Source of the DNA: Westiellopsis prolifica IICB1
GTDB taxonomy: Bacteria > Cyanobacteriota > Cyanobacteriia > Cyanobacteriales > Nostocaceae
Direction: 5' to 3'
Length of the DNA: 40,719 bases
Assembly: GCF_004323185.1 (NCBI RefSeq)
Contig: NZ_NAPS01000001.1
Span: 3,133,606 to 3,174,324 of the forward strand
The position numbers and the translations under genes were made by a program. Numbering within the stretch: position 1 is the first letter of the stretch; every line of letters starts with the position of its first letter. Below are positions 10,481-40,719 of this stretch, piece after piece. A model generated the notes under the pieces. It had not been told where the DNA came from. It made no database searches and worked only from the letters and a program-made list of their open reading frames with translations.

Positions 10481-10690
10481 ATGACTAGAATTGCAATATC
10501 TGACATTTCTCTGGAGCAAAATTATCTCGCAGACTTATCTGAAACGGAGTCTGCAATTATTACAGGTGGTTTAAATTTCAAAGGGTTTCTTCTGGGTTTG
10601 GCTACGCTTTCTGTTGTATTTACGTCCAAAAAAATTGATGCCATCCAAGCAATTACTATTGCCTCAATTAACGCGATCGCTTCGCTTTAA
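10481..10690 (+). CDS. Double-glycine leader (bacteriocin-like) precursor peptide
   Basis: 69 aa, beginning MTRIAISDISLEQNYLADLS. The leader ends LSETESAIITGG, a typical double-glycine cleavage site of the kind cut by C39 peptidase exporters. The predicted core of 39 aa after GG is hydrophobic and ends KKIDAIQAITIASINAIASL. That end matches the pattern of the partial peptide at 40621-40719 (KKLNAFVGLIQYGINAVAAL). ATG 10481 is preferred because the double-glycine leader starts there; the frame is open back to GTG 10421, which would give 89 aa. No exporter is adjacent; the nearest candidate is the C39 ABC transporter at 34700-37744. Confidence 0.72.
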   Translation: MTRIAISDISLEQNYLADLSETESAIITGGLNFKGFLLGLATLSVVFTSKKIDAIQAITIASINAIASL

Positions 10691-15740: not shown

Positions 15741-16970
15741 ATGGGTACACCTCACGCTACTTTTGCAGCTACTGAGACAGCATTTCATGTGACGGGCTAC
15801 GAAAAGATAGATTTTAGTCTGGTTTATGTGAATGGTGTATTCAACATTAAAAACACAGAAATTGCTGATAGTTATCAGAAGTTTGGACGCTGCTTGACTG
15901 TTGTTGACCATAATGTCTACCGTTTGTATGGAGACCAAATTAAGTCGTATTTTCGTTACTACGACATAGATTTAACTGTGTTTCCAATTACTATTACTGA
16001 ACCTGGCAAAACCATGGCAACTTTTGAACAAGTAGTTGATGCGTTTGCCGATTTTGGCTTAATTCGTAAAGAACCAGTTTTAGTAGTTGGTGGTGGTTTA
16101 GTTACTGATGTTGTAGGTTTTGCTTGTGCGGCTTATCGTCGCAGTACTAACTATATTCGCATTCCCACGACTTTGATTGGTTTGATAGATGCTGGGATTG
16201 CGATTAAAGTAGCAGTCAATCATAAAAAGCTGAAAAATCGCTTGGGTGCTTACCATGCACCGCAGAAAGTCATTCTAGACTTTTCCTTTCTCAAGACACT
16301 ACCAACAGCCCAAGTCCGGAATGGAATGGCGGAGTTAGTGAAAATTGCTGTGGTAGCAAATGCAGAAGTTTTTAATTGGCTGTATGAGTACGGAGAAGAC
16401 TTACTGCATACGCACTTTGGCTATCTCAACGGTACAGAGGAACTGCAAGAAATTGCTCACAAAGTGAACTACGAAGCAATTAAAACCATGCTGGAGTTAG
16501 AAACTCCAAACCTGCATGAGCTAGACTTAGATCGCGTCATTGCTTATGGTCACACTTGGAGTCCGACACTAGAATTAGCACCGCGGGTTCCTCTGTATCA
16601 TGGTCATGCTGTCAACATCGATATGGCGCTATCAGCAACTATTGCTGAACGACGGGGATATATTACTGTAGCAGAACGCGATCGCATTCTTGGATTGATG
16701 AGTCGTCTAGGTTTAGCCCTTGATCATCCCCTTCTAGATAGCGATTTGTTATGGTACGCTACCCAGTCTATCACCCAGACAAGAGACGGGAAACAACGCG
16801 CCGCCATGCCAAAACCTATTGGTGAGTGTTTCTTTGTCAATGACCTAACCCGTGAAGAATTGCATCAAGCTTTGATGGCACACAAGGATGTATGTGCAAC
16901 ATATCCCCGTTGTGGAGATGGGATTGAAGCCTATATCAGTGCAGAACAATCTGAGATGGTAGGAGTCTAG
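15741..16970 (+). CDS. mysA: Demethyl-4-deoxygadusol synthase MysA
   Basis: 409 aa, sugar phosphate cyclase related to 3-dehydroquinate synthase. It forms the six-membered core of mycosporines from sedoheptulose 7-phosphate. The NAD-binding loop is [20 protein letters not shown] (113-132). Zinc ligands by family alignment are E198 (GMAELVK), H271 (YGHTWSP) and H287 (LYHGHAV). Length and sequence match Nostoc/Anabaena MysA. AAAGGA (15727-15732) precedes ATG 15741. It is the first gene of mysA-mysB-mysC, with mysB starting 4 bp after its stop. Confidence 0.96.
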
Positions 16971-16974
16971 AATC

Positions 16975-17805
16975 GTGACTAGCATTGTTGAAAAGAACAC
17001 AGCTAGACCCGTAACTCCCCACGGTATCTTGGTTGAACAGCTACAAAAAACTCTGGCTTTGGCAGAATCAGGAAATACACCTGAAACTGTTGTCACTGCA
17101 CTACGACAGACGTATCAATTAGCGGCGGGTTTAGAACCTTATATTAGTGACCACACTACCACTGAATCTGACGCCTTAGCAGCACTGGTACAAAAAACTA
17201 CCAAAGAAGACTGGACAAAACGTTTCACTGATGGTGAAACAGTGCGTCAACTAGAACAGGAAATGCTTTCTGGACACGTCGAGGGACAAACCCTGAAAAT
17301 GTTTGTTCACATGACTAAAGCGAAAAGTGTCTTGGAAGTAGGAATGTTCACCGGGTATTCTGCTTTGGCAATGGCAGAGGCATTACCTGATGATGGACGA
17401 GTGGTAGCATGTGAAGTGGACTCTTATGTTGCTAGCTTTGCTCAAACTTGTTTCCAGAACTCACCCCACGGTCATAAAATTACTGTGGAAGTTGCACCAG
17501 CCTTGGAAACTCTGCAAAAACTTGCAGCAGCAGGTGAATCATTTGATTTGATATTCATCGATGCTGACAAGAAAGAGTATGTGCAGTATTTCCAGATCAT
17601 CTTGGATAATAATCTACTTGCATCTAACGGCATTATTTGTGTAGATAACACTTTAATGCAGGGACAGGTTTATCTGCCACCAGAACAACGTACAGCTAAT
17701 GGTGAAGCGATCGCTCAATTTAACCAAATCATTACCCAAGATCCGCGTGTAGAACAAGTTATACTACCGCTTCGTGATGGTGTGACTTTAATTCGGCGGT
17801 TGTAA
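16975..17805 (+). CDS. mysB: O-methyltransferase MysB (4-deoxygadusol formation)
   Basis: 276 aa, class I SAM-dependent O-methyltransferase of the caffeoyl-CoA type. Motif I is VLEVGMFTG (119-127), IDADKKEY (195-202) holds the metal/SAM-binding Asp, and VDNTL (223-227) supplies another metal ligand. In the MAA pathway it methylates demethyl-4-deoxygadusol to 4-deoxygadusol. It starts with GTG, with AGGAG (~16961-16965) overlapping the end of mysA, which fits translational coupling. Confidence 0.95.
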   Translation: MTSIVEKNTARPVTPHGILVEQLQKTLALAESGNTPETVVTALRQTYQLAAGLEPYISDHTTTESDALAALVQKTTKEDWTKRFTDGETVRQLEQEMLSGHVEGQTLKMFVHMTKAKSVLEVGMFTGYSALAMAEALPDDGRVVACEVDSYVASFAQTCFQNSPHGHKITVEVAPALETLQKLAAAGESFDLIFIDADKKEYVQYFQIILDNNLLASNGIICVDNTLMQGQVYLPPEQRTANGEAIAQFNQIITQDPRVEQVILPLRDGVTLIRRL

Positions 17806-17855
17806 AAAAATGGGGTTTGCGTGGTACTGATGGGTTTTTTTTGAGGGCGAATTAT

Positions 17856-19235
17856 ATGACACAATCTATTTCTGTGGCTTCTGTTGGACAAACAACTCAG
17901 TCAGTTACCCTGGGACTTCGCATATCTGCGTTGTTTAAAAATTTAGCTACACTTGCACTGCTGTTGTTAGTATTGCCAATCAATGCTGCGATTGTGTTGG
18001 TATCGCTGTTATTGGGTAGTCAATCGCAAGCGATCGCCACCGAACCCAAAAACATCTTGATTAGTGGCGGTAAAATGACTAAGGCGTTACAATTAGCCCG
18101 TAGTTTTCACGCCGCCGGACATCGAGTGGTTTTAGTAGAAACTCACAAATACTGGTTAACGGGACATCGATTTTCCAAAGCAGTAAGTCGTTTCTACACT
18201 CTACCAACGCCCCAATCTGATCCTGAAGCATACACCCAAGCCCTATTAGATATTGTTCAAAAAGAAAATATCGATGTCTATGTACCCGTGTGCAGTCCGG
18301 TTGCTAGTTACTACGACTCTTTAGCTAAACCCGTACTGTCGAAGTACTGCGAGGTTTTTCACTGCGACGCAGATGTCACCCAAATGTTGGATGATAAATA
18401 CGCTTTTGTTGAGAAAGCGCGGAGTTTGGGGTTATCTGTTCCCAAGTCTTTCAAAATTACTGACCCGGAACAGGTGAGCAACTTTGATTTTTCTCAAGAA
18501 AAGCGTAAATACATCCTCAAAAGCATTCCTTATGACTCTGTTCGTCGCTTAGATTTAACCAAACTTCCTTGTGAGACTCCCGAAGCAACAGCAGATTTTG
18601 TCAACAGCTTACCCATCAGTTCCCAAAAGCCATGGATTATGCAAGAATTCATTCCTGGAAAAGAATTTTGCACCCACAGCACTGTCCGCAATGGGGAGTT
18701 GAGAATGCATTGCTGTTGTGAATCTTCGGCATTTCAAGTTAACTATGAGAATGTCGATCATCCCCAAATTTTGGAATGGGTGCGACACTTTGTCAAAGCA
18801 TTAGGTATCACTGGACAGGTATCTTTTGATTTTATCGAAGCACAAGATGGCACAATCTACGCCATTGAATGTAATCCGCGTACCCATTCTGCCATCACTA
18901 TGTTCTACAATCATCCGGATGTGGCAAATGCTTATTTAAGTGAAATTCCACAAGTAGAACCAATTCAACCTCTGATTAATAGTAAGCCTACCTACTGGAC
19001 TTATCATGAAATTTGGCGATTGACAGGAATTCGTTCTTTCTCACAGTTGCAAACTTGGTTGAAAAACTTTTTTGGTGGAAAAGATGCGATTTACAGTTTG
19101 AGTGATCCTCTACCTTTTTTGACAGTTCATCACTGGCAAATTCCTTTATTATTGCTACAAAATTTGCAACAGCTAAAAGGTTGGATCAGGATAGATTTTA
19201 ATATTGGGAAATTGGTTGAGTTCGGTGGCGATTAA
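17856..19235 (+). CDS. mysC: ATP-grasp ligase MysC (mycosporine-glycine synthase)
   Basis: 459 aa. It joins glycine to 4-deoxygadusol to give mycosporine-glycine. A hydrophobic segment (31-54) near the N-terminus, typical of MysC, precedes the ATP-grasp fold; YILKSIPYDSVRRLD and FIPGKEFCTHSTV line the nucleotide site and AIECNPRTHSAI (~340) carries the metal-binding Glu/Asn. ATG 17856 is chosen because GAGGG lies 9 bp upstream and the length fits the family; an upstream GTG (17817) would add 13 residues with no homology. It is 50 bp after mysB. Confidence 0.95.
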   Translation: MTQSISVASVGQTTQSVTLGLRISALFKNLATLALLLLVLPINAAIVLVSLLLGSQSQAIATEPKNILISGGKMTKALQLARSFHAAGHRVVLVETHKYWLTGHRFSKAVSRFYTLPTPQSDPEAYTQALLDIVQKENIDVYVPVCSPVASYYDSLAKPVLSKYCEVFHCDADVTQMLDDKYAFVEKARSLGLSVPKSFKITDPEQVSNFDFSQEKRKYILKSIPYDSVRRLDLTKLPCETPEATADFVNSLPISSQKPWIMQEFIPGKEFCTHSTVRNGELRMHCCCESSAFQVNYENVDHPQILEWVRHFVKALGITGQVSFDFIEAQDGTIYAIECNPRTHSAITMFYNHPDVANAYLSEIPQVEPIQPLINSKPTYWTYHEIWRLTGIRSFSQLQTWLKNFFGGKDAIYSLSDPLPFLTVHHWQIPLLLLQNLQQLKGWIRIDFNIGKLVEFGGD

Positions 19236-19238
19236 ATT

Positions 19239-19273
19239 CAGTTATCAGTTATCAGTTATCAGTTATCAGTTAG
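19239..19273. repeat. Heptamer tandem repeat (CAGTTAT)x5
   Basis: Five 7-bp units (the last CAGTTAG) just after mysC. The same heptamer in opposite orientation (ACTGATA) occurs four times at 30157-30184. Confidence 0.9.
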
Positions 19274-19310
19274 TAGCTGTTCACTGATAATTTATAGATA
19301 TTGAATATAT

Positions 19311-19642
19311 ATAGGACTCATATTTGATTTCTGAAATACACGTAGTGGCGTGGCAAGACTAAAAAGATGCGATAAATCTCTTCTTCATTCTCTGCGTTCT
19401 CTGCGCCTCTGCGGTTTACTAATGCACTATTTTAAGGCTGTCGCGCCACTACAGATACTTATACCATTTCTTTATGAGGCTGCGCCAAATTTAATTGACT
19501 TCTTCTTTCTTTCTTCGTGTTCTTTGTGTCCTACCCTGCGGGTAAGCGCTTGCGCGTCTATGTGGTTCGTTCCTTATATATTAGGCGCATCTTCATACAG
19601 AATTGGTATTAGATTTTTTCAGAAATCAAATCGGACTCCTAT
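19311..19642. mobile_element. MITE-like inverted-repeat element between mysC and mysE
   Basis: The 26-bp left end (19311-19336, starting ATAGGACTCA) and right end (19617-19642, ending CGGACTCCTAT) are near-perfect inverted repeats. Nested inside are GTAGTGGCG/CGCCACTAC and ATACCATTTCTTTATGAGG / CTTCATACAGAATTGGTAT. It encodes no transposase. A second inverted pair, built on CTCTGCGCCTCTGCGGTTT, spans 19384-19745 and overlaps it. A 107-codon frame inside is not a gene. Confidence 0.65.
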
Positions 19643-19793
19643 AGCAGTAATAAATCAATACGGTTGGTGTTAGAGTTAAAACTTTTTGTGAAAATCAATT
19701 TTTTTTACCAAACCGCAGAGGCGCAGAGGACTCAGAGATAAAGAAACAATTCTTACCTGTATTAAGTTATAAATCACTATAATTTTATCAAAG

Positions 19794-22535
19794 ATGGAAA
19801 TAATAAACTTTATAGATGATTCTCTAGAAGTCGAAGAACAAAAATATTCTTGGGAAAGATGCTTAGATAGTGTTTCTGATCTTTCTCTGCTGAGTCCAGA
19901 AGAAAAACAAAAAATATTATTTACATGGAATCAGACAGAAACTAATTATGATTTGTCGATTTGTCTACATGAGTTATTTGCAGCACAGGTAGAGAAAACA
20001 CCAGATGCAAAAGCTCTCAAGTTTGCTGATCAAGAATTGAGTTATCATCAGTTAAATTGTCGGGCGAATCAACTCGCTCACTATTTGCAATCTTTGGGAA
20101 TTGCAACCGAAGATTTAGTTGGAATTTGTGTGGAACGTTCTCTAGAAATGGTTGTGGGGTTATTGGGAATTCTCAAAGCGGGTGCGGCTTATGTTCCAAT
20201 TGATCCTGGATATCCTCAAGAACGTTTAGCATATATGTTGGCAGATTCCCAGGTGTCGGTGTTGTTGACTCAAAGTCATTTAGTCGATAATTTACCAACA
20301 CGTCCAACCCACACAATCTGCTTGGATACTGACTGGGATCAGATTTCTCAATATAGCGATCGCAATCCTGACAATACAGCGACACCAGAAAATCTCGCTT
20401 ATGTAATTTACACTTCTGGTTCTACTGGTAAACCTAAAGGAGCGATGAATACCCATCGCGGTATCTGCAATCGTCTGTTATGGATGCAAGATGCTTATCA
20501 ACTCACTCAACAAGATCGGGTTCTGCAAAAAACTCCCTTTAGTTTTGATGTCTCTGTCTGGGAATTCTTTTGGCCGTTGATTACCGGGGCGCGGCTGATT
20601 ATAGCACAACCAGGTGGACACAAGGATAGTTCTTATCTGATTCATACAATTATCGAAGAAGAAATTACCACATTACATTTTGTCCCTTCGATGTTGCAAG
20701 TATTTTTGCAAGCTAAAGGAGTGGAAAATTGTCAGTCATTAAAACGGGTAATTACTAGTGGTGAAGCTTTACCTGTGAGTCTGCAAGAACGGTTTTTTGA
20801 ACGTTTGGGATGTGAACTGCACAATCTTTATGGTCCTACAGAAGCAGCGATCGATGTTACGTTTTGGCAGTGTCAACCTCAAAGTCAATATCAAACAGTA
20901 CCGATTGGTCGTCCCATCGCTAATACTCAAATATATATATTAGACCAACATTTGCAACCTGTGCCTGTGGGTGTTGTGGGTGAACTTTATATTGGTGGTG
21001 TGGGAGTTGCCAGAGGTTACTGGCGTCGTCCAGAATTAACTACAGAAAGATTTGTATCTAATCCCTTTGCAACGGGACAAATGTATAAAACTGGTGACTT
21101 GGCGCGTTATTTACCTGATGGTAATATCGAGTATGTTGGCAGAATTGACGATCAAGTCAAAATTCGTGGTTTTCGGATTGAGTTGGGAGAAATTGAGAGT
21201 ACGCTGACGCAACATTCCCAGATTAGTCAAGCTGTGGTTGTCGCCCAGACAGATAATTTAAATAATAAGCATTTAATTGCTTATATTGTTCCCCAGGGAG
21301 AACCACCCACACCAACCCAACTGCGGAATTTCCTTCAGGGTAAGCTACCTGAATTCATGGTTCCCTCAGCTTTTGTCTGCTTAAATTCCTTTCCTCTCAC
21401 TCCTAGTGGAAAAATAGACAGGCGATCGCTTCCTAAACCTGATTTCTCTAACTTAATCACTCATGAAGATTTTACGCCTGCACGCAATGATTTAGAGAGA
21501 AAAATCGCGCAGATTTGGTCAGAAATTTTACAGATTTCGGAAATTGATATTAGAGATAACTTTTTTGAGATTGGTGGTAATTCCCTTTTAGCATTACATT
21601 TAATGAATGCCATCGAACAAAAATTTGGTCGAGAGTTAGCACTGTCAACTTTACTTACTAATAACTCAATTGAAAAGCTAGCAGAAATTCTACAAAACCC
21701 CACAGATATTTTCCCCAATTCACCTATAGTAGCAATTCAGCCCAAAGGTACAAAACGTCCTTTTTTCTGCATCCATCCAGCCGGCGGACATGTACTTTGC
21801 TATTTTAGTTTGGCGCATTATTTAGGCACTGACCAGCCATTTTATGGTTTACAAGCACAGGGTTTTTATGGTGAAGAAGAACCACTAACTACAGTTGTAG
21901 AAATGGCTAGGCTTTATGCTCAAGCTATACAAACAATTCAACCCACAGGGCCATATCAAATTGGTGGTTGGTCGTTTGGTGGTGTAGTTGCTTATGAAAC
22001 GGCTCAACAACTACACCAACAAGGAAAAGAAGTTTCCTTACTAGCAATTTTAGATTCTTATGTGCCAATTCTGTTAGATAAAAATAAAAAAATTGATGAT
22101 GTTTATTTAGTTGGTGTACTATCCCGTGTATTTGGCGGGATGTTTGGTCAAGATAATCTGATTTCACTAGCGGAAATCGAAAATTTGAGTGTGGAAGAAA
22201 GTTTAAATTACATCATCGAAAAAGCACGCCAAGCCAAAATTTTCCCACCAGGAGTAGAACGTCACAATAATCGCCGCATTTTAGATGTTTTAGTCGGAAC
22301 ATTAAAAGCCACTTATTCTTATGAACGTTGTCCCTATCCTGGCAAAGTTACTATTTTTAGAGCCAGAGAAAAACATATCATGGCTCCTGATCCTACTTTA
22401 GTTTGGGTAGAATTATTTTCAGTTTTGGCTGCGGAGGAAATTGAAATTCATAATGTCCCTGGTAATCACTATTCATTTGTTTTAGAACCTCACGTCCAAG
22501 CTTTAGCTGAAAGTTTGCAGAAATGTTTGTGCTGA
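19794..22535 (+). CDS. mysE: NRPS-like MAA synthetase MysE (A-T-TE), predicted serine-adding
   Basis: 913 aa. Residues ~55-555 are an adenylation domain with YTSGSTGKPKGA (206-217), NLYGPTEAAID (344-354), YKTGDL (431-436) and PLTPSGKIDRRSLP (534-547). The carrier domain has the phosphopantetheine Ser597 in GGNSLLALH. The thioesterase (~650-910) has GWSFG (S727), D754 and H892. The specificity pocket by alignment to GrsA is D252 V253 W256 H295 I320 S322 L345 I353 D354 K540, a serine code. It should join serine to mycosporine-glycine, giving shinorine, as does the enzyme from Anabaena variabilis. No SD is obvious before ATG 19794. It is 558 bp from mysC because of intervening repeats. Confidence 0.95.
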   Translation: MEIINFIDDSLEVEEQKYSWERCLDSVSDLSLLSPEEKQKILFTWNQTETNYDLSICLHELFAAQVEKTPDAKALKFADQELSYHQLNCRANQLAHYLQSLGIATEDLVGICVERSLEMVVGLLGILKAGAAYVPIDPGYPQERLAYMLADSQVSVLLTQSHLVDNLPTRPTHTICLDTDWDQISQYSDRNPDNTATPENLAYVIYTSGSTGKPKGAMNTHRGICNRLLWMQDAYQLTQQDRVLQKTPFSFDVSVWEFFWPLITGARLIIAQPGGHKDSSYLIHTIIEEEITTLHFVPSMLQVFLQAKGVENCQSLKRVITSGEALPVSLQERFFERLGCELHNLYGPTEAAIDVTFWQCQPQSQYQTVPIGRPIANTQIYILDQHLQPVPVGVVGELYIGGVGVARGYWRRPELTTERFVSNPFATGQMYKTGDLARYLPDGNIEYVGRIDDQVKIRGFRIELGEIESTLTQHSQISQAVVVAQTDNLNNKHLIAYIVPQGEPPTPTQLRNFLQGKLPEFMVPSAFVCLNSFPLTPSGKIDRRSLPKPDFSNLITHEDFTPARNDLERKIAQIWSEILQISEIDIRDNFFEIGGNSLLALHLMNAIEQKFGRELALSTLLTNNSIEKLAEILQNPTDIFPNSPIVAIQPKGTKRPFFCIHPAGGHVLCYFSLAHYLGTDQPFYGLQAQGFYGEEEPLTTVVEMARLYAQAIQTIQPTGPYQIGGWSFGGVVAYETAQQLHQQGKEVSLLAILDSYVPILLDKNKKIDDVYLVGVLSRVFGGMFGQDNLISLAEIENLSVEESLNYIIEKARQAKIFPPGVERHNNRRILDVLVGTLKATYSYERCPYPGKVTIFRAREKHIMAPDPTLVWVELFSVLAAEEIEIHNVPGNHYSFVLEPHVQALAESLQKCLC

Positions 22536-27316: not shown

Positions 27317-27367
27317 AAACTAATATTGCGCCAGAGAATAAATTCTCTGGTCAATTGTTTTACTGAT

Positions 27368-27501
27368 GAGCGATCGCAATACGGTTCGGTTAAGAATTTT
27401 TCGTCATAATTTTGGATATGTAGAGACGCGATATATCGCGTCTCTACAGGATTTAAATGCCAATCGATTTGTCTTATCCGAACCGTATTGGGAGCGATCG
27501 C
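27368..27501. repeat. Nested inverted repeat with HIP1 ends
   Basis: GAGCGATCGCAATACGGTTCGG (27368-27389) is inverted at 27478-27501 (CCGAACCGTATT then GAGCGATCGC). A perfect 30-bp family B palindrome (27419-27448) sits between the arms. Confidence 0.8.
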
Positions 27502-27527
27502 ACTATGCTGAAGTTCCCCCAAATCCT

Positions 27528-27557
27528 TGTAGAGACGTGAAATTTCACGTCTCTACA
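27528..27557. repeat. Palindrome family B, perfect 30-bp copy
   Basis: TGTAGAGACGTGAAA is followed directly by its exact inverse. The two central variants here (GTGAAA|TTTCAC) differ from the GCGAT form but are themselves complementary, which suggests that pairing is selected or newly copied. Confidence 0.85.
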
Positions 27558-27581
27558 TTCTTTTTCACCAGAGATCTAAAG

Positions 27582-27791
27582 AACATCGCGACGTTTGTGG
27601 GTAACATCGCGACGTTTGTGGGTAACATCGCGACGTTTGTGGGTAACGTCGCGATGTTTGTGGGTAACGTCGTGACGTTTGTGGGTAACGTCGCGACGTT
27701 TGTGGGTAACGTCGCGCCGTTCATAAAGAACATCACGACATTTGTGGCTAACGTCGCGACGTTCTTTATGAATGAGACGACATTCGTCACA
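27582..27791. repeat. 21-bp tandem repeat array (about 10 units)
   Basis: Units of AACRTCGCGACGTTTGTGGGT repeat every 21 bp. Units 1-6 (27582-27707) are nearly identical and 7-10 are diverged. The best units contain the perfect 12-bp palindrome ACGTCGCGACGT. Units 7 and 9/10 carry a 12-bp inverted pair TTCATAAAGAAC (27720-27731) / GTTCTTTATGAA (27761-27772). Because 21 is divisible by three, both strands stay open and give heptapeptide repeats (FVGNVAT on +). I do not think it is a gene: the + frame starts inside other palindromes and no SD is seen. Confidence 0.85.
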
Positions 27792-27951
27792 AACGTCAAA
27801 GCGATGGTGCAAAGTAGACGCTACGCGATCGCAAATAAATGATTAAAGTTATCGCGGTTCTTGGTTGAGTAAACTTTTAAAAAGCCACGTAGATGAAGAA
27901 TTTTAATCCCCGTGAGGGGGTGAAGGTAATCTACGACATGAGCAACTGATA

Positions 27952-33450: not shown

Positions 33451-34074
33451 ACCGGAGAGTGTCAAATATCTTTAAGCTTGAATTGCAGATGTAATCGTTC
33501 ACCAATAGTAGTAAAATAAGTATATTTGCCGCATCTACCTTGGTACATTCTCAAGCCACGCGCAGTGTACCAAAATTTATTGATTATTCTGTGTCAAATG
33601 TTTATCCCTGTCTTTCCACTTAAGAAGACAGAAACATTTTGATGCCAATAGTACTGATGCAATCGTAAACTATGGATGCTACTTACGTAACAATAGTTAG
33701 TGATATGTGTCAGGTTTTTGTGAAAACTTTGTAAAATAGTTTGCTTTTTGGTGAAAAATTCCTTAGCCTTTGATAAAGATATTGTAAAACTTCTACACCG
33801 ACAAAACACTCAGTCTGGAAATCGATTAGCCTGTATGGAAGAGTACAATGACCCAAGTCATGTAGCAAATTTCTTCTAAATTTTCATCTATAAATACAAG
33901 GTTCTGACAAATGAAATCATATATGGCAATGTTGAAACTTATACAAAATACAAGTTTTATTTGTTGAGAGACTAAAGTTTATTAAAGAACTATTTAGAAC
34001 TCGGTAAAAATTTTGTAAAAAAATATGTGATCAATTTTACTTGCCTAGAGTTGAGTCCAACTGGTGATAATATT
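33451..34074. other. AT-rich upstream region of the peptide-export operon
   Basis: No gene seen. ATTTGCCGCATC at 33522 also occurs upstream of the double-glycine peptide (near 10309-10320), the only clear sequence the two upstream regions share. No promoter can be fixed. Confidence 0.4.
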
Positions 34075-34677
34075 ATGCAGAACCGTTCTAGTAACAACAA
34101 TGTCTTAGAAAGCTATGACAACAAAGAGAGTAAATTTTTAACGCCCTTTCAGCGAAAACTACTACTCAAAAATTTGCAAACTGATTTACAGCCAGAATAT
34201 AGACGCAGGCTAGAAATCATGTTGCTAGCAGACACGGGAAAAAGTCAGGCTGAGATATGTCGGATTTTGGGTTGCTCTCAGGAGATGGCACGGTATTGGA
34301 TTGCTATGGTACAAGCAGGCCTAGCACACCAATGGAATGAACGGGCAAAAGGCAGACCAAAAACTGTTAACAAGCAATATCTTGAAAGATTGCAAGAACT
34401 GGTAACACATAGCCCGCGTGATTATGGTTATGCGTTTAGCAGTTGGACAGCCCAATGGTTAAGCAAACACCTAGCTTTTGAACTAGGAATTGAGATTAGC
34501 GATCGCCACATAAACCGACTCCTTAAACAGAAAGGGCTGTCTACCAAACAACAATATCAAAAAAGCAAACAACAAACTGACCAGTTCCAAAACGCTGGAA
34601 TTCAGATTTGTGATTTGCAATCTAACAGTGAATTGAACGTTGATTGCTCATTAAACTTAATGAAAATCAGCAACTAA
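34075..34677 (+). CDS. HTH protein related to the IS630 transposase DNA-binding domain
   Basis: 200 aa from ATG 34075 (GTG 34027 would add 16). Residues ~22-150 hold two helix-turn-helix units of the IS630/Tc1 type: 'RRRLEIMLLADTGKSQAEICRILGCSQEMARYWIAMVQ' and the winged part ending 'LGIEISDRHINRLLKQKGLS'. The DDE catalytic half is absent, and the tail (~155-200) is Gln/Asn-rich without homology. This looks like a transposase DNA-binding domain kept as a regulator. It lies 22 bp before the ABC exporter gene, so it may regulate that operon. Confidence 0.8.
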   Translation: MQNRSSNNNVLESYDNKESKFLTPFQRKLLLKNLQTDLQPEYRRRLEIMLLADTGKSQAEICRILGCSQEMARYWIAMVQAGLAHQWNERAKGRPKTVNKQYLERLQELVTHSPRDYGYAFSSWTAQWLSKHLAFELGIEISDRHINRLLKQKGLSTKQQYQKSKQQTDQFQNAGIQICDLQSNSELNVDCSLNLMKISN

Positions 34678-34699
34678 ATATATTTTGTGAGGTACGGAA

Positions 34700-37600
34700 A
34701 TGCCATCAGTATTTGACCAGCAACAGCTCGGTCAAACGCTCACCCGTGTTTTGGGTGAAAAGCTTGCTAATCAAGAAATGCAAAGCTGCATCAAGGCGGT
34801 AGAAATAATCAAACCGCCCGTAGCAAAGCTTTTTTGGCAAGCGACGACAGGAAAAGCAGGAATTTATCTTGTCTTAACGGGTAAAGTGCGGCTATTAGAT
34901 CGCTCAAACAACTTAATTACCACCCTCAATCCCGGAGAAGGATTTGGTGAAGCGAGTTTGTTTGCAAAAGAACAATGGCTTCCCTATGCTGCTAGAGCTT
35001 CTTCTAACTTGCAAATTGCTTATTTGCCAAGCGACGTTTTGCAAGGTTTGATCAGTAAGCATCCTCGGATTAGCGATCGCCTCAGAAAACAAGCAGAAAT
35101 GTGGGATTTAATGCTCACTTTGCTGCATCAATATCAAGAACAAAACAGTACCTCTGGTGAAGGTATACTCCAAGCCTTATCTGTATTTGAGCGACATGAT
35201 TTAGAATTGGGCAGTGTTGACGCCAAACTCCGCCAAGATAGTAAACTGTGGCTGGTGCATCGGGGAGAATTACAACATCCCGATGGTCGTTTTTTAACTG
35301 CTGGAAACATCTATGAAATATCCCGCGCGGACGATTTGCAGGTTACACAACCAAAAACAATTGCATATACTCTCAGTCATGGAAATTGGGAAATAGCTCT
35401 GCAACACTGGTCTGACTTAGCCCAATTAATTGACTCAAAAGCTGGTTCAGCTACGACACAAAGACCTATTGAGAACAGAAAAGTCATTCCTTTTCCCTCA
35501 ACAGAATCGTCCACAGCACCAAAACCAAAAAAACGCCAATCTTATTTTCCCAGTCCCCAAGTAAGATTTGGGCAACTTTGGGGACACATCATTCGGCGCT
35601 ATCCTTTTTCCGCTCAACAAAGCGCCTCGGATTGTGGTGCAGCTTGCTTGGTAATGATTAGTCGTTATTGGGGCAAGCAGTTTAGTATTAGTTTATTGCG
35701 AGATTTAGCCAGCACTAACCGTAGTGGTGCTTCCATCAAAGGTCTAGTCGCCGCAGCAGAAAGTATCGGCTTTTCTACCCGACCTGTAAAAGCTAGTCTC
35801 AATCAATTAGGACAACAATCATTACCAGCAATTGCCCATTGGGAAGGCAAACATTATATAGTTGTCTACGAAATCAACAAAAAGCAAGTCATTGTCTGCG
35901 ATCCCGCAATTGGACAACGTAGTCTCACCCACGAAGAATTCCAAGCTAATTGGACGGGCTATGCGTTGTTATTGGAACCAACAGTCGGATTAAAAGAAAC
36001 TCCAGAAGCCAATCAACCATTTTGGCGATTTTTTGATTTAGTCAAACCTCATACAGTTGTATTGGTAGAGGTGTTTGTTGCTTCGGTCTTGATTCAGTTA
36101 TTTGGGTTAATAACACCACTATTTACTCAACTACTATTGGATCGAGTCGTTGTCCAAGGTAGCACCTTGACCTTAAACGCTGTCGGTTTGGGGTTAATTA
36201 TTTTTGGTTTATTTCGTGTCGCCATCAGCGCCCTACGACAATATTTATTAGATCATACAGCTAACCGGATAGGCGTCGCCTTAATGGTGGGTTTTATTAA
36301 ACACACTTTTCGTTTACCTTTAGCATTCTTTGAATCTCGATACGTTGGTGATATTGTTTCTCGCGTCCAAGAAAACCAAAAAATTCAGCGCTTTTTAACA
36401 GGAGAAGCACTGACAATTGTTCTGGATTTATTAACAGTATTTATCTACATCGGATTGATGTTTTGGTATAGTTGGCAACTAGGATTACTGGTGCTTTTAG
36501 TTGTACCACCATTTGTTTTAGTTGCGCTGATTGCCACACCTTTTTTACGCTTAATATCCAGAGAAATTTTTACGAGTTTAGCAAAAGAAAGTAGCTACCT
36601 GATCGAATCACTAACCGGGATTCGGACAATCCGTTCCATGGCGATTGAGCAGACAGTCCGCTGGCGTTGGGAAGAACTGCTCAATCAATCAGTGAAAAAG
36701 AATTTTGCCGGTCAAGTGATTGGTGTACGATTGCAACTTGTAAGTACTACCATTGAAACTTTAGCAACCACAATTTTACTTTGGTTTGGCGCATGGCAAG
36801 TCATCCAAAACCAACTAACGATTGGGCAATTAGTTGCTTTTAATATGTTGTTGGGTCAGGTAATTCAGCCTTTTCGACGATTAATTGTCCTGTGGAATCA
36901 ACTACAAGAAGTAGTGATTTCTACAGAACGGATTAACGATGTTCTGGAAGCCGAACCAGAAGAAGACTTAAGCACCTCAGCCAAGCAAATGCTTCCCGAA
37001 ATGATTGGTAGTGTTCGCTTTGCGGGAGTAACTTTCCGTTATCATGCCGACAGTGAATATAACATCCTGGAAAATCTTAGCTTTGAAATCAAGCCAGAAC
37101 AAACAGTAGCCCTTGTTGGACGTAGTGGTTCTGGGAAAACCACCCTCTCAAAACTCATATTAGGTTTATACCCACCGACAGATGGCAAAATCTTAATCGA
37201 TGAGCAGGATATCACATCTGTTTCTTTGCGATCGCTACGACAACAAATCGGAGTAGTTGACCAAGATACCTTTTTGTTTGGTGGAACTATTCGCGAAAAC
37301 CTGAGCATTGCTCACCCCCAAGCCACCCTAGAAGATATTATCCAAGCTGCAACCATTGCTGGTGCAGATGAATTTATTCGCCGACTACCGATGGGTTATG
37401 AAACTCAAATTGGTGAAGGTGGTGGTTTGCTCTCTGGTGGACAACGCCAACGACTGGCGATCGCCAGAGCTTTAGTTGGTAATCCCCGCTTATTAATTTT
37501 TGATGAAGCGACGAGTCATTTGGATACAGAATCAGAGCGGATCATTCAAAACAATCTCAAAACGATTCTGACTGGGCGTACAAGTATTATTATTGCTCAT

Positions 37601-37744
37601 CGCCTCTCAACAATTCGCAATGCGGATTTAATTCTGGTTTTGGATCGTGGTGTGTTGATAGAAAGCGGTACTCATGATGAATTGATCAACGCCAAAGGAC
37701 ATTATTTTTATCTCAACCAACAACAACTTGCTCAGGTTGGTTAA
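34700..37744 (+). CDS. C39-peptidase ABC exporter with N-terminal cNMP-type domain
   Basis: 1014 aa. Residues ~15-135 form a cyclic nucleotide-binding-like domain (IYLVLTGKVRLL, NPGEGFGEASLF), and ~155-235 may be a second degenerate copy. A linker (250-295) leads to a C39 peptidase domain (~300-427) with Q306, C312, H385 and D401. Membrane helices span ~450-720. The ATPase has GRSGSGKT (807-814), LSGGQ (911-915), LLIFDE (931-936) and H967. Such transporters cut double-glycine leaders and export the peptide core. The HlyD adaptor follows at once, and double-glycine peptide genes lie at 40621 and 10481. Confidence 0.93.
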   Translation: MPSVFDQQQLGQTLTRVLGEKLANQEMQSCIKAVEIIKPPVAKLFWQATTGKAGIYLVLTGKVRLLDRSNNLITTLNPGEGFGEASLFAKEQWLPYAARASSNLQIAYLPSDVLQGLISKHPRISDRLRKQAEMWDLMLTLLHQYQEQNSTSGEGILQALSVFERHDLELGSVDAKLRQDSKLWLVHRGELQHPDGRFLTAGNIYEISRADDLQVTQPKTIAYTLSHGNWEIALQHWSDLAQLIDSKAGSATTQRPIENRKVIPFPSTESSTAPKPKKRQSYFPSPQVRFGQLWGHIIRRYPFSAQQSASDCGAACLVMISRYWGKQFSISLLRDLASTNRSGASIKGLVAAAESIGFSTRPVKASLNQLGQQSLPAIAHWEGKHYIVVYEINKKQVIVCDPAIGQRSLTHEEFQANWTGYALLLEPTVGLKETPEANQPFWRFFDLVKPHTVVLVEVFVASVLIQLFGLITPLFTQLLLDRVVVQGSTLTLNAVGLGLIIFGLFRVAISALRQYLLDHTANRIGVALMVGFIKHTFRLPLAFFESRYVGDIVSRVQENQKIQRFLTGEALTIVLDLLTVFIYIGLMFWYSWQLGLLVLLVVPPFVLVALIATPFLRLISREIFTSLAKESSYLIESLTGIRTIRSMAIEQTVRWRWEELLNQSVKKNFAGQVIGVRLQLVSTTIETLATTILLWFGAWQVIQNQLTIGQLVAFNMLLGQVIQPFRRLIVLWNQLQEVVISTERINDVLEAEPEEDLSTSAKQMLPEMIGSVRFAGVTFRYHADSEYNILENLSFEIKPEQTVALVGRSGSGKTTLSKLILGLYPPTDGKILIDEQDITSVSLRSLRQQIGVVDQDTFLFGGTIRENLSIAHPQATLEDIIQAATIAGADEFIRRLPMGYETQIGEGGGLLSGGQRQRLAIARALVGNPRLLIFDEATSHLDTESERIIQNNLKTILTGRTSIIIAHRLSTIRNADLILVLDRGVLIESGTHDELINAKGHYFYLNQQQLAQVG

Positions 37745-37873
37745 GATGCAAATTTTTCCTTTTCCTAACCTTTATTCAAACCAAGGGTGCAAACAAGATA
37801 TAGTACCAAATAATTTCTCTCAAGGTACAGAGCAAGCAAATTTCATGAGTTGGGTCAATTCCATTTTCCAAAG

Positions 37874-37901
37874 TCCAAAATCCAAAATCCAAAATCCAAA
37901 A
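37874..37901. repeat. Heptamer tandem repeat (TCCAAAA)x4
   Basis: Four 7-bp units in the 179-bp gap between the exporter and the HlyD gene, ending 22 bp before the HlyD start. Similar CCAAAATCC repeats occur at 210-238. Confidence 0.9.
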
Positions 37902-37923
37902 TTGTTTGACAGGGTACACAAGT

Positions 37924-39471
37924 ATGGCTAATTTATCCAACAACTTACCGTCCATATCGGCAAACAATCAAACAAATGGACGTCGTAATAGATCCGCTGA
38001 AGATAGGGAATTCGAGCAAGCAAATTTTGCAGAAACAGAAGCAAATGATTGGTATTATGGCACAGAAGAACTTTTAGATGCCTTACCCAAGCGTTGGACA
38101 CGTTCTTCACTATATTTTTTAGTCAGTTTTGCTGTTGTCGTTTTACCTTGGGCAGCATTTTCTCAAGTGGATGAAACAGGAAACGCCAGAGGACGGATAG
38201 AACCACTCGGAAAAACGCGAAAATTAGACAGTCAAGTTGGTGGTAGTGTTGTCGCCGTTAAGGTCAAAGAAGGAGATACAGTTAGAGCCGGACAAGTTTT
38301 AGTTGAGTTGGAATCAGATGTGCTGCGAACTGATTTACAACAAGCAAAAACAAAGCTCGAAGGATATCAAAATCGGTTAGTACAATTTGAGTTACTTAAA
38401 AACCAGATACTCTTAACAAATAGCGTTCAACAACAACAAAATAAATCTCAAGAATTAGAAAAACTTTCACAAATCAATCAAGCACAGCAAGAGTTAAGTG
38501 CAAAAGAGAGTACTTATAACTCTCAAAAAATCGAAAAACTAGCTTTAGTTGATCAAGCAAAGCAGAATATTTCTAGTACCCAGACTCTTAATGAAATAGC
38601 TAAAATTCGTTTATCTCAGGATCTCAACGAGGCTCAACGTTTTCAAAGATTGCTAAATGAAGGCGTTGTTCCTCAAACGAAAGTTGTAGAAGTAACAAAG
38701 GAAGCACAAGAAAGTCAACAATTACAAGCAAAAGCTCAATCTGATGCCAAACAAGCCGAATTAAGTTACAAAGAAGAAGCTAGTCGTTATCAAACTGTAA
38801 TTAACCAAGCAAAAGCAGAGATTGAACAAGCTAAACTACGTTTGCAAGAACAGCGCAGTAGTTATTCAAGTGTAGTGGAAGCAGGAAGAATAGCTGTTCT
38901 CAAAAATCAGCAACAACTCAAAGATTTACAATCACAAGTTGCTGAGTTGCGATCGCTCATCGCTCAGAGTCGAAGCGAAATTCTATCATTAAATATTCAG
39001 TTACAGCAACGTGTTATTAGATCGCCAATTAATGGTGTAATTTATGAATTGCCGATAGAAAAACCCGGCGCTGTCGTCCAAGCTGGTCAAGAAGTTGCTC
39101 AAATTGCACCTAGTAATTCTGATTATATACTCAAGGCACAAATGCCTAGCCAAGAAAGCGGTTTCTTAAAGGTGGGAATGCCTGTCAAAATTAAATTTGA
39201 TGCCTATCCTTTCCAGGATTATGGAGTTGTCAAAGGAGAAGTGCGTTGGGTTTCACCAGATTCAAAAATTGTCGAAACTCCTCAAGGTAATATTGAAGTT
39301 TTTGATGTCGAAGTTACCTTAGATAAACCTTATATCCAAACAGGGGATAAACGTATTCTCCTCACCCCAGGTCAAACAGCAACCGCAGAGGTAATTGTTC
39401 GTCAACGTCGTCTGGCTGATTTTATTTTAGATCCGTTTAAGAAACTGGAAAAAGGTGGATTGGAGCTGTAG
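37924..39471 (+). CDS. HlyD-family membrane fusion protein
   Basis: 515 aa from ATG 37924 (AGGG box upstream; TTG 37906 is less likely). A cytoplasmic tail of ~58 aa precedes one membrane helix (61-80). A lipoyl-like half (GGSVVAVKVKEGDTVRAGQV) at ~106-125 leads into a long coiled coil (~133-350, rich in Gln/Glu/Lys) and back to the second lipoyl half (VIRSPINGVIYEL) and a beta-barrel. It should connect the C39 ABC exporter to an outer-membrane channel (TolC/HgdD type), which is not in this window. Confidence 0.92.
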   Translation: MANLSNNLPSISANNQTNGRRNRSAEDREFEQANFAETEANDWYYGTEELLDALPKRWTRSSLYFLVSFAVVVLPWAAFSQVDETGNARGRIEPLGKTRKLDSQVGGSVVAVKVKEGDTVRAGQVLVELESDVLRTDLQQAKTKLEGYQNRLVQFELLKNQILLTNSVQQQQNKSQELEKLSQINQAQQELSAKESTYNSQKIEKLALVDQAKQNISSTQTLNEIAKIRLSQDLNEAQRFQRLLNEGVVPQTKVVEVTKEAQESQQLQAKAQSDAKQAELSYKEEASRYQTVINQAKAEIEQAKLRLQEQRSSYSSVVEAGRIAVLKNQQQLKDLQSQVAELRSLIAQSRSEILSLNIQLQQRVIRSPINGVIYELPIEKPGAVVQAGQEVAQIAPSNSDYILKAQMPSQESGFLKVGMPVKIKFDAYPFQDYGVVKGEVRWVSPDSKIVETPQGNIEVFDVEVTLDKPYIQTGDKRILLTPGQTATAEVIVRQRRLADFILDPFKKLEKGGLEL

Positions 39472-39605
39472 TTAATTATAGGCAATCACCATGTAATAAT
39501 TAGCAGTTAGTTGCTATCATTAGCTATGAGTTATTTGAGAGATATTAACTGTTAAGCAACGATTGACTTGACGCAAACTTTGTAATTGGAATTCAGAATT
39601 TCACC

Positions 39606-40385
39606 ATGTCGAAAGAGTTAAAAATTTCCAGCGTAGATATTTTGCAGCAAATCAAACTCTCCTGCCAAATTCCAGAATTAGTACAAGCGATCGCCAATCG
39701 CAAAATTGTTGCTGATGCTGCAAATCAAGCAGGGATAAAAATTGAAACCATAGAACTACAAAAAGCAGCAGATAATTTGCGTGTCGCTAATAAACTACTC
39801 AAAGCAGAAGACACTTGGGCATGGCTGAAAAAACATCATCTTGCAGTAGAAGAATTTGAACTATTAGCAGAAACGAATTTGCTTTCTGCAAAACTAGCAA
39901 ATCATTTATTTGCTGATAAAGTTGAACCGTTCTTTTATGAAAATCAACTCAATTACATAGCTGCGGCTATCTATGAAGTTGTTTTAGATGACGAGGACTT
40001 AGCTCTAGAACTGTTTTATGCCCTTCAAGAAGGCGAAATTAGTTTTGCAGAAATCGCTCGTCAATACATTCAAAACCCAGATTTACGCCGTGCTGGTGGA
40101 TATCTTGGTGTGAAAACTCGCACTGAATTACGTCCAGAAATTGCTGCGGCTGTTTTTGCTGGCAATCCACCAGGAGTAATTAAGCCTATTGTTACTCCCA
40201 AAGGAGTTCATTTAATCTGGGTGGAAGAAATCATTCAACCTCAATTAAGTGAGTTAATGCGACTCAAAATTCTCAGTGACTTATTTGCTAATTGGTTAAA
40301 ACAACAAAGTTCTACATGCAATATCACTGTAGATTTAGACTCAGAGCATAATTCTTCAGCAAAAGAACTGTTGAAACAAGCTTAA
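39606..40385 (+). CDS. Parvulin-type peptidyl-prolyl isomerase (cytosolic)
   Basis: 259 aa with a SurA/PrsA-like N-terminal helical part (~10-110) and a parvulin domain (~118-210): SFAEIARQY, AGGYLGVKTRTEL, and PIVTPKGVHLIWVEEI. No signal peptide, so unlike SurA it should act in the cytoplasm. Genes of this type sit next to C39/HlyD exporters in cyanobacteria, where they may help keep precursor peptides export-ready. It is 134 bp after the HlyD gene, and two hairpins follow it. Confidence 0.85.
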   Translation: MSKELKISSVDILQQIKLSCQIPELVQAIANRKIVADAANQAGIKIETIELQKAADNLRVANKLLKAEDTWAWLKKHHLAVEEFELLAETNLLSAKLANHLFADKVEPFFYENQLNYIAAAIYEVVLDDEDLALELFYALQEGEISFAEIARQYIQNPDLRRAGGYLGVKTRTELRPEIAAAVFAGNPPGVIKPIVTPKGVHLIWVEEIIQPQLSELMRLKILSDLFANWLKQQSSTCNITVDLDSEHNSSAKELLKQA

Positions 40386-40399
40386 ATCTGGGAAAGTCA

Positions 40400-40430
40400 G
40401 ATCCCCGACTTCTTAAAGAAGTCGGGGATC
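40400..40430. terminator. Family A palindrome acting as terminator
   Basis: GATCCCCGACTTCTT and its exact inverse AAGAAGTCGGGGATC separated by one base, followed by TTGTTGT. It lies 15 bp after the isomerase stop and probably ends that transcript. Confidence 0.75.
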
Positions 40431-40477
40431 TTGTTGTCCACACTTGACAAGATTAAATATGCCAAATAATATAAAGT

Positions 40478-40511
40478 GGTGTTGTAAAAAGTTAAAACTT
40501 TTCGCAACACC
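40478..40511. terminator. Hairpin between convergent genes
   Basis: GGTGTTG (40478-40484) pairs with CAACACC (40505-40511), with an inner AAAAGTT/AACTTTT. It could end the minus-strand peptide transcript or the plus-strand operon. Confidence 0.55.
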
Positions 40512-40620
40512 GTAAATACCTTACCTTACACAAAAAAGAGTATTCAATTTTAGCTGAGATTTACTTGTGGTTGTAAAATAAAATTTTGTTTAACAACCAC
40601 AGCAAATTTATATTCAGAAA

Positions 40621-40719
40621 TTAGAGTGCAGCAACTGCGTTAATACCATATTGGATTAAGCCTACAAATGCATTTAACTTCTTGGTTTCAAAACCTTCTC
40701 CCAATACAGCTAGTCCACC
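40621..40719 (-). CDS. Double-glycine peptide precursor (partial, cut by window edge)
   Basis: The minus strand from the edge reads GG-LAVLGEGFETKKLNAFVG then LIQYGINAVAAL and stop (TAA at 40623-40621). The first two residues seen are a Gly-Gly pair, where a leader would be cut, so the window holds the whole predicted core (~30 aa) but not the leader. The end KKLNAF..LI.YGINAVAAL closely resembles the end of the peptide at 10481-10690 (KKIDAI..IT.ASINAIASL). The gene is convergent with the export operon. Confidence 0.65.
   Translation of the reverse strand, partial: GGLAVLGEGFETKKLNAFVGLIQYGINAVAAL

Follow-up and report, generated by a model that had tools for sequence, protein, structure and literature searches.

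A peptidase-containing exporter cassette of Westiellopsis prolifica, its candidate precursors and a helix-turn-helix protein with a leader-like tail

Which peptides are served by a peptidase-containing exporter of the cyanobacterium Westiellopsis prolifica IICB1, and how might their production be matched to export? These questions are raised by a stretch of 40,719 nucleotides (contig NZ_NAPS01000001.1, positions 3,133,606 to 3,174,324; hereafter the window) in a genome of 7.3 Mb on 29 contigs. Positions 34075-40385 are occupied by a cassette of a helix-turn-helix (HTH) protein, an exporter combining cyclic nucleotide-binding (cNMP), C39 peptidase and ATP-binding cassette (ABC) domains, an HlyD adaptor and a parvulin, a cassette of a known kind (long-type exporters). 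In PCAT-type exporters the C39 domain recognises the leader of a precursor and cleaves after its double glycine (GG), and ATP drives export. Leader recognition, cleavage after the GG and ATP-driven export are also described in PMC10986499 (in part). Gene content, leader classes, their co-segregation with the HTH gene and a motif in the HTH tail can be read directly from the sequences. They suggest, with slightly more for this view than against it, a self-regulated type I peptide-export cassette with precursors of one leader class (type A) and an HTH regulator whose leader-mimicking tail would dock on the exporter. The features concerned are the following.

34075..34677, plus strand: HTH regulator-like protein, 200 amino acids (aa) (Pfam HTH_32, HTH_28 and HTH_23; NCBIfam IS630 model, positions 1-137 of 299)
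34600..34617, plus strand: leader-like tail motif IQICDL, residues 176-181 of the HTH protein (tail scoring; pLDDT <50, no secondary structure)
34700..37744, plus strand: peptidase-containing ABC exporter, 1014 aa (cNMP binding, C39, ABC membrane and ABC ATPase domains)
37906..39471, plus strand: HlyD-family adaptor (TIGR01843 above cut-off; PF13437)
39606..40385, plus strand: parvulin-type peptidyl-prolyl isomerase (PF00639 above cut-off; TIGR04500 below cut-off)
40621..40719, minus strand: 3' part of a GG-peptide gene, 32 codons and stop, core only (alignment and profile; intact tandem genes stand here in relatives)
10481..10690, plus strand: solo GG-peptide gene, 69 aa, with leader at residues 1-30 (type A) and core at residues 31-69

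Two classes of leader were distinguished, type A (roughly M[STA][RK]I.ISD[LI]...GG) and type B (for example MIISDLN..E...GG), by patterns written after the sequences had been seen. A set of 49 cassettes from several genomes was read, L075 being excluded because its parvulin open reading frame (ORF) has a stop (L numbers denote compared loci). Fifteen of these had been chosen for the type-A peptides in them; they bear on the class match but say nothing about how often such peptides occur. Wherever a peptide was recognised, leader class went with the HTH gene: in the 25 HTH cassettes concerned the leaders are always of type A and on the opposite strand (the HTH gene of L071 was shown later), and in the 14 HTH-less ones always of type B and on the same strand; HTH-less L045 has one additional type-B ORF on the opposite strand. 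No peptide was recognised at eight HTH cassettes, including that of the window, which leaves too little room, and at two HTH-less ones. In a tree of 46 exporters (three of the 49 cassettes, lacking an exporter ORF of at least 780 aa, were omitted) the HTH label changes once, with an SH-aLRT of 100. Another set was chosen by the HTH gene alone and consists of the best 80 of 164 named loci, weaker relatives being missing. The complete trio of ABC exporter, HlyD and isomerase is present in 64 of these 80 loci, and in 59 of the 64 more than 1.5 kb follows the parvulin. Type-A peptides were found within 3.5 kb after the parvulin in 32 of these 59 roomy loci; the peptides at this place number 44, every one on the opposite strand and not one of type B. 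At L160 opposite-strand type-A-like matches lie inside the cassette, and L155 has one type-B match upstream.

The first-pass annotation, made from the window alone, had named a second peptide some 30 kb from the one at the window edge, with a matching C-terminus. The ORF 10481-10690 indeed exists, encodes 69 aa with a GG leader and lies ~29.9 kb from the edge fragment. A local alignment of the two scores 56 (maximum of 5000 shuffles, 45). In a search of 916 window ORFs with a profile of nine relatives, from which the edge fragment was left out and in which the 10481 peptide was included, the 10481 peptide came first and the edge fragment second, with E 4.5e-4. The likeness of the two is above chance. 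The shared C-terminal pattern is present in this pair, but is weak against the same-place peptide of a close relative (score 34, a value reached by 164 of 5000 shuffles). Orthologues of the 10481 gene have exactly 69 codons in three relatives. For the leader, five of six pairs gave a dN lower than dS. The within-genus values for the core show dN at or above dS (dN/dS 0.151/0.151, 0.255/0.151 and 0.163/0.155), and the core ratios against L114 were 0.67, 0.49 and 1.21, all of them rough since the core has 39 codons. The frame is maintained, whereas strong purifying selection does not act on the core. AlphaFold modelled the peptide as two helices (6-29 and 33-68; mean pLDDT 69.8). Pfam gave no match for this peptide or the edge fragment up to E 1, NCBIfam gave the 10481 peptide a chance-level match only, and no plasmid record was found to encode a relative of it at E 1.

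The 10481 leader scores 30.2 bits on a type-A model of leaders beside HTH-type exporters, trained without the 10481 group, and -2.1 bits on a type-B model of leaders of HTH-less sister exporters. Across the 145 genomes of the family, 27 peptides matched at E<1e-12: 23 lie beside the parvulin of a cassette, and four are the 10481 gene and its orthologues. The gene that follows the solo peptide gene in the window, which we take to be ftsH-like, belongs to a neighbourhood that DNA alignment also finds in L112 and L113. In L114 the ftsH-like gene lies ~3 kb from the 10481 orthologue, with other ORFs in between, and on the other side stands an HTH-type cassette, with the orthologue ~2.4 kb upstream of it. 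In view of this last arrangement, the 30-kb separation in the window may be the product of a rearrangement. Leader class is the main argument for reading both peptides as probable substrates of the window exporter and, with the L114 orthologue, outweighs the shared C-terminus. The earlier proposal of one exporter for both peptides is thereby supported, short of proof, although on better grounds than the C-terminal likeness on which it had leaned. A third, weaker type-A leader was seen elsewhere in the same genome, on a 49-aa ORF (MKIKISDLNIPEANRYIEELSQTEQLNVKGG...; L129 8683-8856, C1 ~2303.7 kb), possibly a further remote substrate. Between solo peptide and exporter stand four genes at 15741-22535 (15741-19235 and 19794-22535), presumably of a mycosporine-like amino acid pathway (sugar phosphate cyclase, O-methyltransferase, ATP-grasp ligase and a protein like non-ribosomal peptide synthetases), and an ORF of 158 aa (27366-27842), the second half of which consists of repeated units like NIATFVGNVATFVGNV.

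The gene at the window edge is convergent with the cassette and its leader lies beyond the window. Its 32 residues align without gaps to the C-terminal 32 residues of same-place peptides in relatives, and a local alignment with such a peptide covers 18 of the 32. The truncated double-glycine peptide reported earlier is a real fragment, but the GG visible in it was rejected as a leader GG: the alignment sets it ~8 residues after the leader GG of the relatives, inside the core. Past position 40719, where a leader had been expected, the assembly shows N and then, on the same strand, an ATG with MSKITISDINVEMIEVSEVDSAAIVGG. This GG leader scores 27.9 bits on the type-A model and 4.8 on the type-B model; N stands between it and the window edge, so it is at most a candidate for the edge gene's own leader. 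Two same-genus relatives carry two tandem 66-aa peptides at this place, with leaders nearly identical to the one past the edge. In the named loci, tandem genes start 270 and 524 bases after the parvulin in L134, and 371 and 624 in L137. The DNA flanking the array is alike on both sides in the window genome and L059, and the likeness of L060 to the window genome stops ~0.5 kb past the array. Tandem genes in relatives and alike flanking DNA together indicate that a precursor array, of whatever copy number, lies at the window edge here too.

In six related loci (L068, L118, L120, L122, L126 and L127) the array consists of two different peptides. Their dN/dS ratio of means is 1.00 for one core, 0.19 for its partner and ~0.2 for both leaders. 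A rapidly evolving peptide next to a stable one would be in keeping with a pair that serves recognition or antagonism. Eleven cores have a grand average of hydropathy (GRAVY) of 0.48 to 1.29 and no cysteine. Beside the array a small divergent ORF with the conserved start MKALDKATGIMSQ is found (L059 9907-10092, minus strand; L060 9699-9935, plus strand), with 61 aa in L059, 78 aa in L060 and 36 codons to the stop in the frame of the window genome. It may be an immunity gene, a regulatory gene or merely conserved upstream DNA, and is possibly non-coding because its length varies between genomes; the ORF lists of two relatives yielded no other immunity candidate around the array. The first genes of arrays share an upstream region that is absent from the solo genes. 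A palindromic repeat at 40400-40430 (GATCCCCGACTTC...GAAGTCGGGGATC), 3' of the parvulin gene, has 80 matches listed in its own genome, self and both strands counted.

The tail of the HTH protein carries I-x-I-S/C-D-L, the core of the type-A leader motif, without a GG. The likeness was first spotted by eye and then tested. When a six-column leader matrix was scanned over four aligned families (1862 windows), the HTH tail was the top window with z 5.8, and in the HTH family 1 of 719 column permutations reached as high. Twenty further divergent HTH loci were taken from homology lists, 18 with an exporter beside the HTH gene. L233, where the HTH ORF ends early, and L243, where the core end was not found, were left unscored; 16 of the 18 scored tails had p<0.05 against their own shuffles, several of them being close kin and so not independent. 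L229, with p 0.25, has no exporter beside it. A looser pattern, [IV].[IV].[DN][LI], is present in the tails of all 80 best homologues, 75 of which have an exporter within 9 kb. In the AlphaFold model of the HTH protein, residues 160-200 stay at a pLDDT <50 and form no secondary structure, which is what a linear binding motif would be expected to show.

The HTH protein, the putative regulator of the cassette, consists of an HTH region, a variable linker and the short conserved tail. It matches the DNA-binding half of IS630 transposases and nothing beyond: Pfam found no DDE_3 in 34027-34677, and the NCBIfam IS630 model is covered over its first 137 of 299 positions. Its model (mean pLDDT 66, pTM 0.41) gave weak matches in a fold search (best E 0.12), with a paired domain and a mariner-type DNA-binding domain on top. 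The gene is present in 128 of the 145 family genomes (E 1e-40). A sample of 244 genomes from the whole phylum contains it in 35 (E 1e-30), all of one order. In relatives it is found upstream of the exporter. The most similar named genes are those of Fischerella muscicola PCC 73103 (L134, 93%) and Pelatocladus maniniholoensis (L137, 90%). The only further HTH match in the window genome is 31% identical and belongs to an IS630 transposase with DDE_3. A stray transposase was rejected on the grounds of prevalence, single copy and the missing DDE domain; prevalence, single copy, fixed place and the motif kept in divergent tails speak against decay. At L155, L167, L170 and L179 the HTH, HlyD and parvulin genes are retained and no exporter match lies within 9 kb, possibly through loss of the exporter or an insertion.

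Several results weigh against a self-regulated cassette. The tail likeness spans six residues only and was noticed by eye before it was tested, and the tests are not independent because the tested proteins are homologous. The second-best window, IEISDR (z 4.8), lies inside the HTH fold, so hexamers of this kind may have other origins as well. With a model of the whole leader against 581 proteins an HTH tail came first, but weakly, at E 0.042, with unrelated proteins intermixed. The divergent tail of L226 reached p 0.11. For five of the 80 best homologues no exporter was found in the neighbouring 9 kb or as far as the stretch reached, and in L236 the motif persists although the stretch compared contains no cassette exporter, only a 31% identical ABC match 9 kb away. 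On the side of the substrates, no peptide was recognised within 3.5 kb after the parvulin in 27 of the 59 roomy loci, and a few type-A-like matches at seven of the 80 loci share the strand of the cassette (inside the cassette in L199, L205 and L211; L201, L204, L210 and L213, in which the parvulin was not found). Inspection of the upstream regions by eye found no operator or promoter common to solo gene and array. Finally, the genome has eight C39 domains besides that of the window, nine in all, so that the link between peptides and exporter stays a matter of inference. Two of the C39 loci were examined with their surroundings, that of the window with an HTH gene and that on contig C8 without one, both with HlyD and parvulin.

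The cassette genes themselves bear out the trio of exporter, HlyD and parvulin that had been annotated at first, in domains, motif residues and gene order. The span then given, 34075-40719, also contains the HTH gene 34075-34677, which had gone unmentioned. This gene has an alternative start (GTG 34027, giving 216 aa in place of 200 aa from ATG 34075), and its stop is followed after 22 bases by the ATG of the exporter. In the exporter, PF00027 (CAP_ED/cNMP), PF03412 (C39), PF00664 and PF00005 all match above cut-off in a single protein, and the sequence contains QQSASDC (Cys312), His385, Asp401, Walker A and LSGGQ; Cys312, His385 and Asp401 are presumably the catalytic residues. The HlyD gene starts with TTG 37906 and has an in-frame ATG at 37924. 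The parvulin was rightly called cytosolic, as far as inspection of its first 40 residues by eye revealed no signal peptide. None of the four cassette genes, scanned with NCBIfam and Pfam, encodes a modification enzyme. A second, distant parvulin (26-31% identical) stands on the strand opposite to the cassette in L062, L064, L070 and L071, and in other loci upstream of the exporter on the same strand.

A parallel to the HTH tail is offered by HetP. The type-B leader model gave weak matches among long proteins (E 2.9 to 4.9) with four HetP-family proteins near HTH-less cassettes. The HetP motif KIXDLXYLEX10GG has been published and HetP proteins were read as possible precursors (PMC3140520, in part). 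Among 29 hetP genes from 24 genomes, a strict motif ([IVM].DL.[YF]LE) is present in 11 tails, in eight of 14 with an exporter part within 1.5 kb and in three of 15 without; by coordinates, each of those three (L251, L257 and L264) lies no more than 5 kb from a C39 exporter. Against a strict rule stand six HetP proteins with an exporter part within 1.5 kb that lack the strict motif (L254 has the variant IKNLDYLE and a GG) and at least L253 and L256, where an exporter lies within 5 kb by coordinates and the motif is absent. The HetP tail of the window genome reads KIKDLAYLEVVGKQKREIRGG. No HetP-family protein stands beside the window exporter; NF037966 matches once in the genome (E 1e-8, C1:2984208). 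The absence of a functional hetC is reportedly complemented when hetP is moderately over-expressed, and the sorting of HetP to membranes was termed of much interest (PMC4133259, in part). As a reading that is less likely than not, we tentatively propose that cyanobacterial peptide exporters were paired, in two unrelated families, with DNA-binding or commitment regulators bearing the leader class of the exporter's own substrates as a C-terminal motif. The IS630-derived HTH protein, with a type-A motif and no GG, would dock uncut, and HetP, with a type-B motif and a GG, would dock and possibly be cut. What we propose as new is the reading of both kinds of regulator as imitating the leaders of their own exporter; a literature search, which most subscription journals lay outside of, found no such proposal.

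The window cassette shares with the long-type clusters of groups I and II (Wang, Fewer and Sivonen 2011; PMC3140520, in part) the CAP_ED-C39-ABC exporter, with its four domains, an HlyD protein, a rotamase or SurA-like parvulin and nearby GG precursors. The linked HTH gene with a leader-like tail, the convergent type-A array and a remote precursor set the window cassette apart; the main text of that paper has 0 occurrences of 'hth' and 'helix-turn', and gives group I a mean of 0.35 precursors per cluster. Group II is characterised by further modification genes, for example for an M16 peptidase. PteB and the EbfG proteins of Synechococcus elongatus likewise combine a C39 exporter with several small GG proteins (PMC4997328, in part), whereas an HTH gene and a modelled helix in the 10481 peptide distinguish the present system from EbfG1-3, which are amyloid-like (PMC9981879, in part). 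In HetC-HetP (PMC10986499 and PMC4133259, both in part) a CAP_ED-C39-ABC exporter also lies near a regulator with a leader-like tail motif. However, HetP has a HetP domain and a GG in its tail where the window regulator has an HTH and no GG, and no membrane fusion protein gene is reported near hetC in Nostoc 7120 (PMC10986499, in the part consulted), whereas HlyD is present here. The C39-ABC architecture is common to PCAT1 and ComA, as sequence matches to 4ry2 (annotated as an ABC-type bacteriocin transporter) and ComA 8hf7 show; the cNMP-binding domain and HlyD are additional in the window cassette. With IS630 transposases the HTH DNA-binding region is shared, but the window protein lacks a DDE domain, is fixed beside an exporter and has the leader-like tail.

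Three other explanations may be weighed against self-regulation. The locus could be an ordinary long-type bacteriocin cluster for class II-like antimicrobials, the HTH gene being an unrelated neighbour or decayed IS630 transposase and the tail motif chance. Exporter, HlyD and parvulin fit groups I and II of Wang et al., the GG leader of the 10481 peptide is a class II feature, a solo core whose within-genus dN roughly matches or exceeds dS and one array core at 1.00 would be expected in an arms race, and the divergent ORF beside the array could be its immunity gene. We consider this unlikely: an HTH gene kept in 128 of 145 genomes, single here, in a fixed place and with a persistent motif does not look decayed, the second core in two-peptide arrays is highly conserved (0.19), and an ORF of 36, 61 or 78 aa depending on the genome is possibly non-coding. 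An EbfG-like role, in which the exported peptides become part of the surface or matrix and favour aggregation or biofilm formation, is not very likely either, although PteB, the exporter of that system, is needed for efficient secretion of four small GG proteins on which the biofilm depends (PMC4997328, in part), and the prevalence of the HTH gene (128/145) and the want of a convincing immunity gene in the two relatives would fit a housekeeping social role. The amyloid-like EbfG1-3 (PMC9981879, in part) differ from a 10481 peptide modelled as two helices, and mature EbfG1-4 were described as lacking homology to other cyanobacterial proteins (PMC4997328, in part; not compared with the present cores).

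Instead of acting as a sensor that docks on C39, the HTH tail might be exported itself, or might bind the parvulin or some other protein that recognises leaders; we regard this as quite unlikely. To our knowledge DNA-binding proteins are unusual as type I substrates. The reading of HetP proteins as possible precursors by Wang et al. (PMC3140520, in part) would favour it, as would the match, below cut-off, of the parvulin to TIGR04500 ('putative peptide maturation system protein'); cleavage of the tail is, however, improbable because the window HTH tail has no GG.

In the self-regulated cassette that we slightly favour, precursors would come from the tandem array convergent with the cassette and from the solo gene at 10481, and would probably be held export-competent by the parvulin. 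The exporter would recognise the type-A leader on these small precursors, its C39 domain would cleave after the GG, and ABC exporter, HlyD and a TolC-type outer-membrane partner encoded elsewhere would export a hydrophobic core of ~30-40 residues. The HTH tail, as a copy of the leader motif that cannot be cut, would dock on the exporter, most likely on its C39 domain, when this is free of substrate. Transcription could then track the export load, and the cell may sense pump activity. Recognition, cleavage, regulation, docking and activity are all put forward here by inference. Once outside, the cores would most probably target kin or close relatives at their membranes or surfaces, in a bacteriocin-like or matrix-like manner; bacteriocin, matrix and signal roles are all conceivable.

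On this reading a substrate class is assigned to the HTH-type long exporters, and likely precursors can sit far from their exporter. A testable answer is also offered to the questions of how cells adjust the making of such peptides to their export and of what links HetC to HetP. If leader mimicry by regulators is true, the exporter would control the regulator, and HetC could influence the commitment to heterocysts through recruitment or processing of HetP, with no separate peptide substrate.

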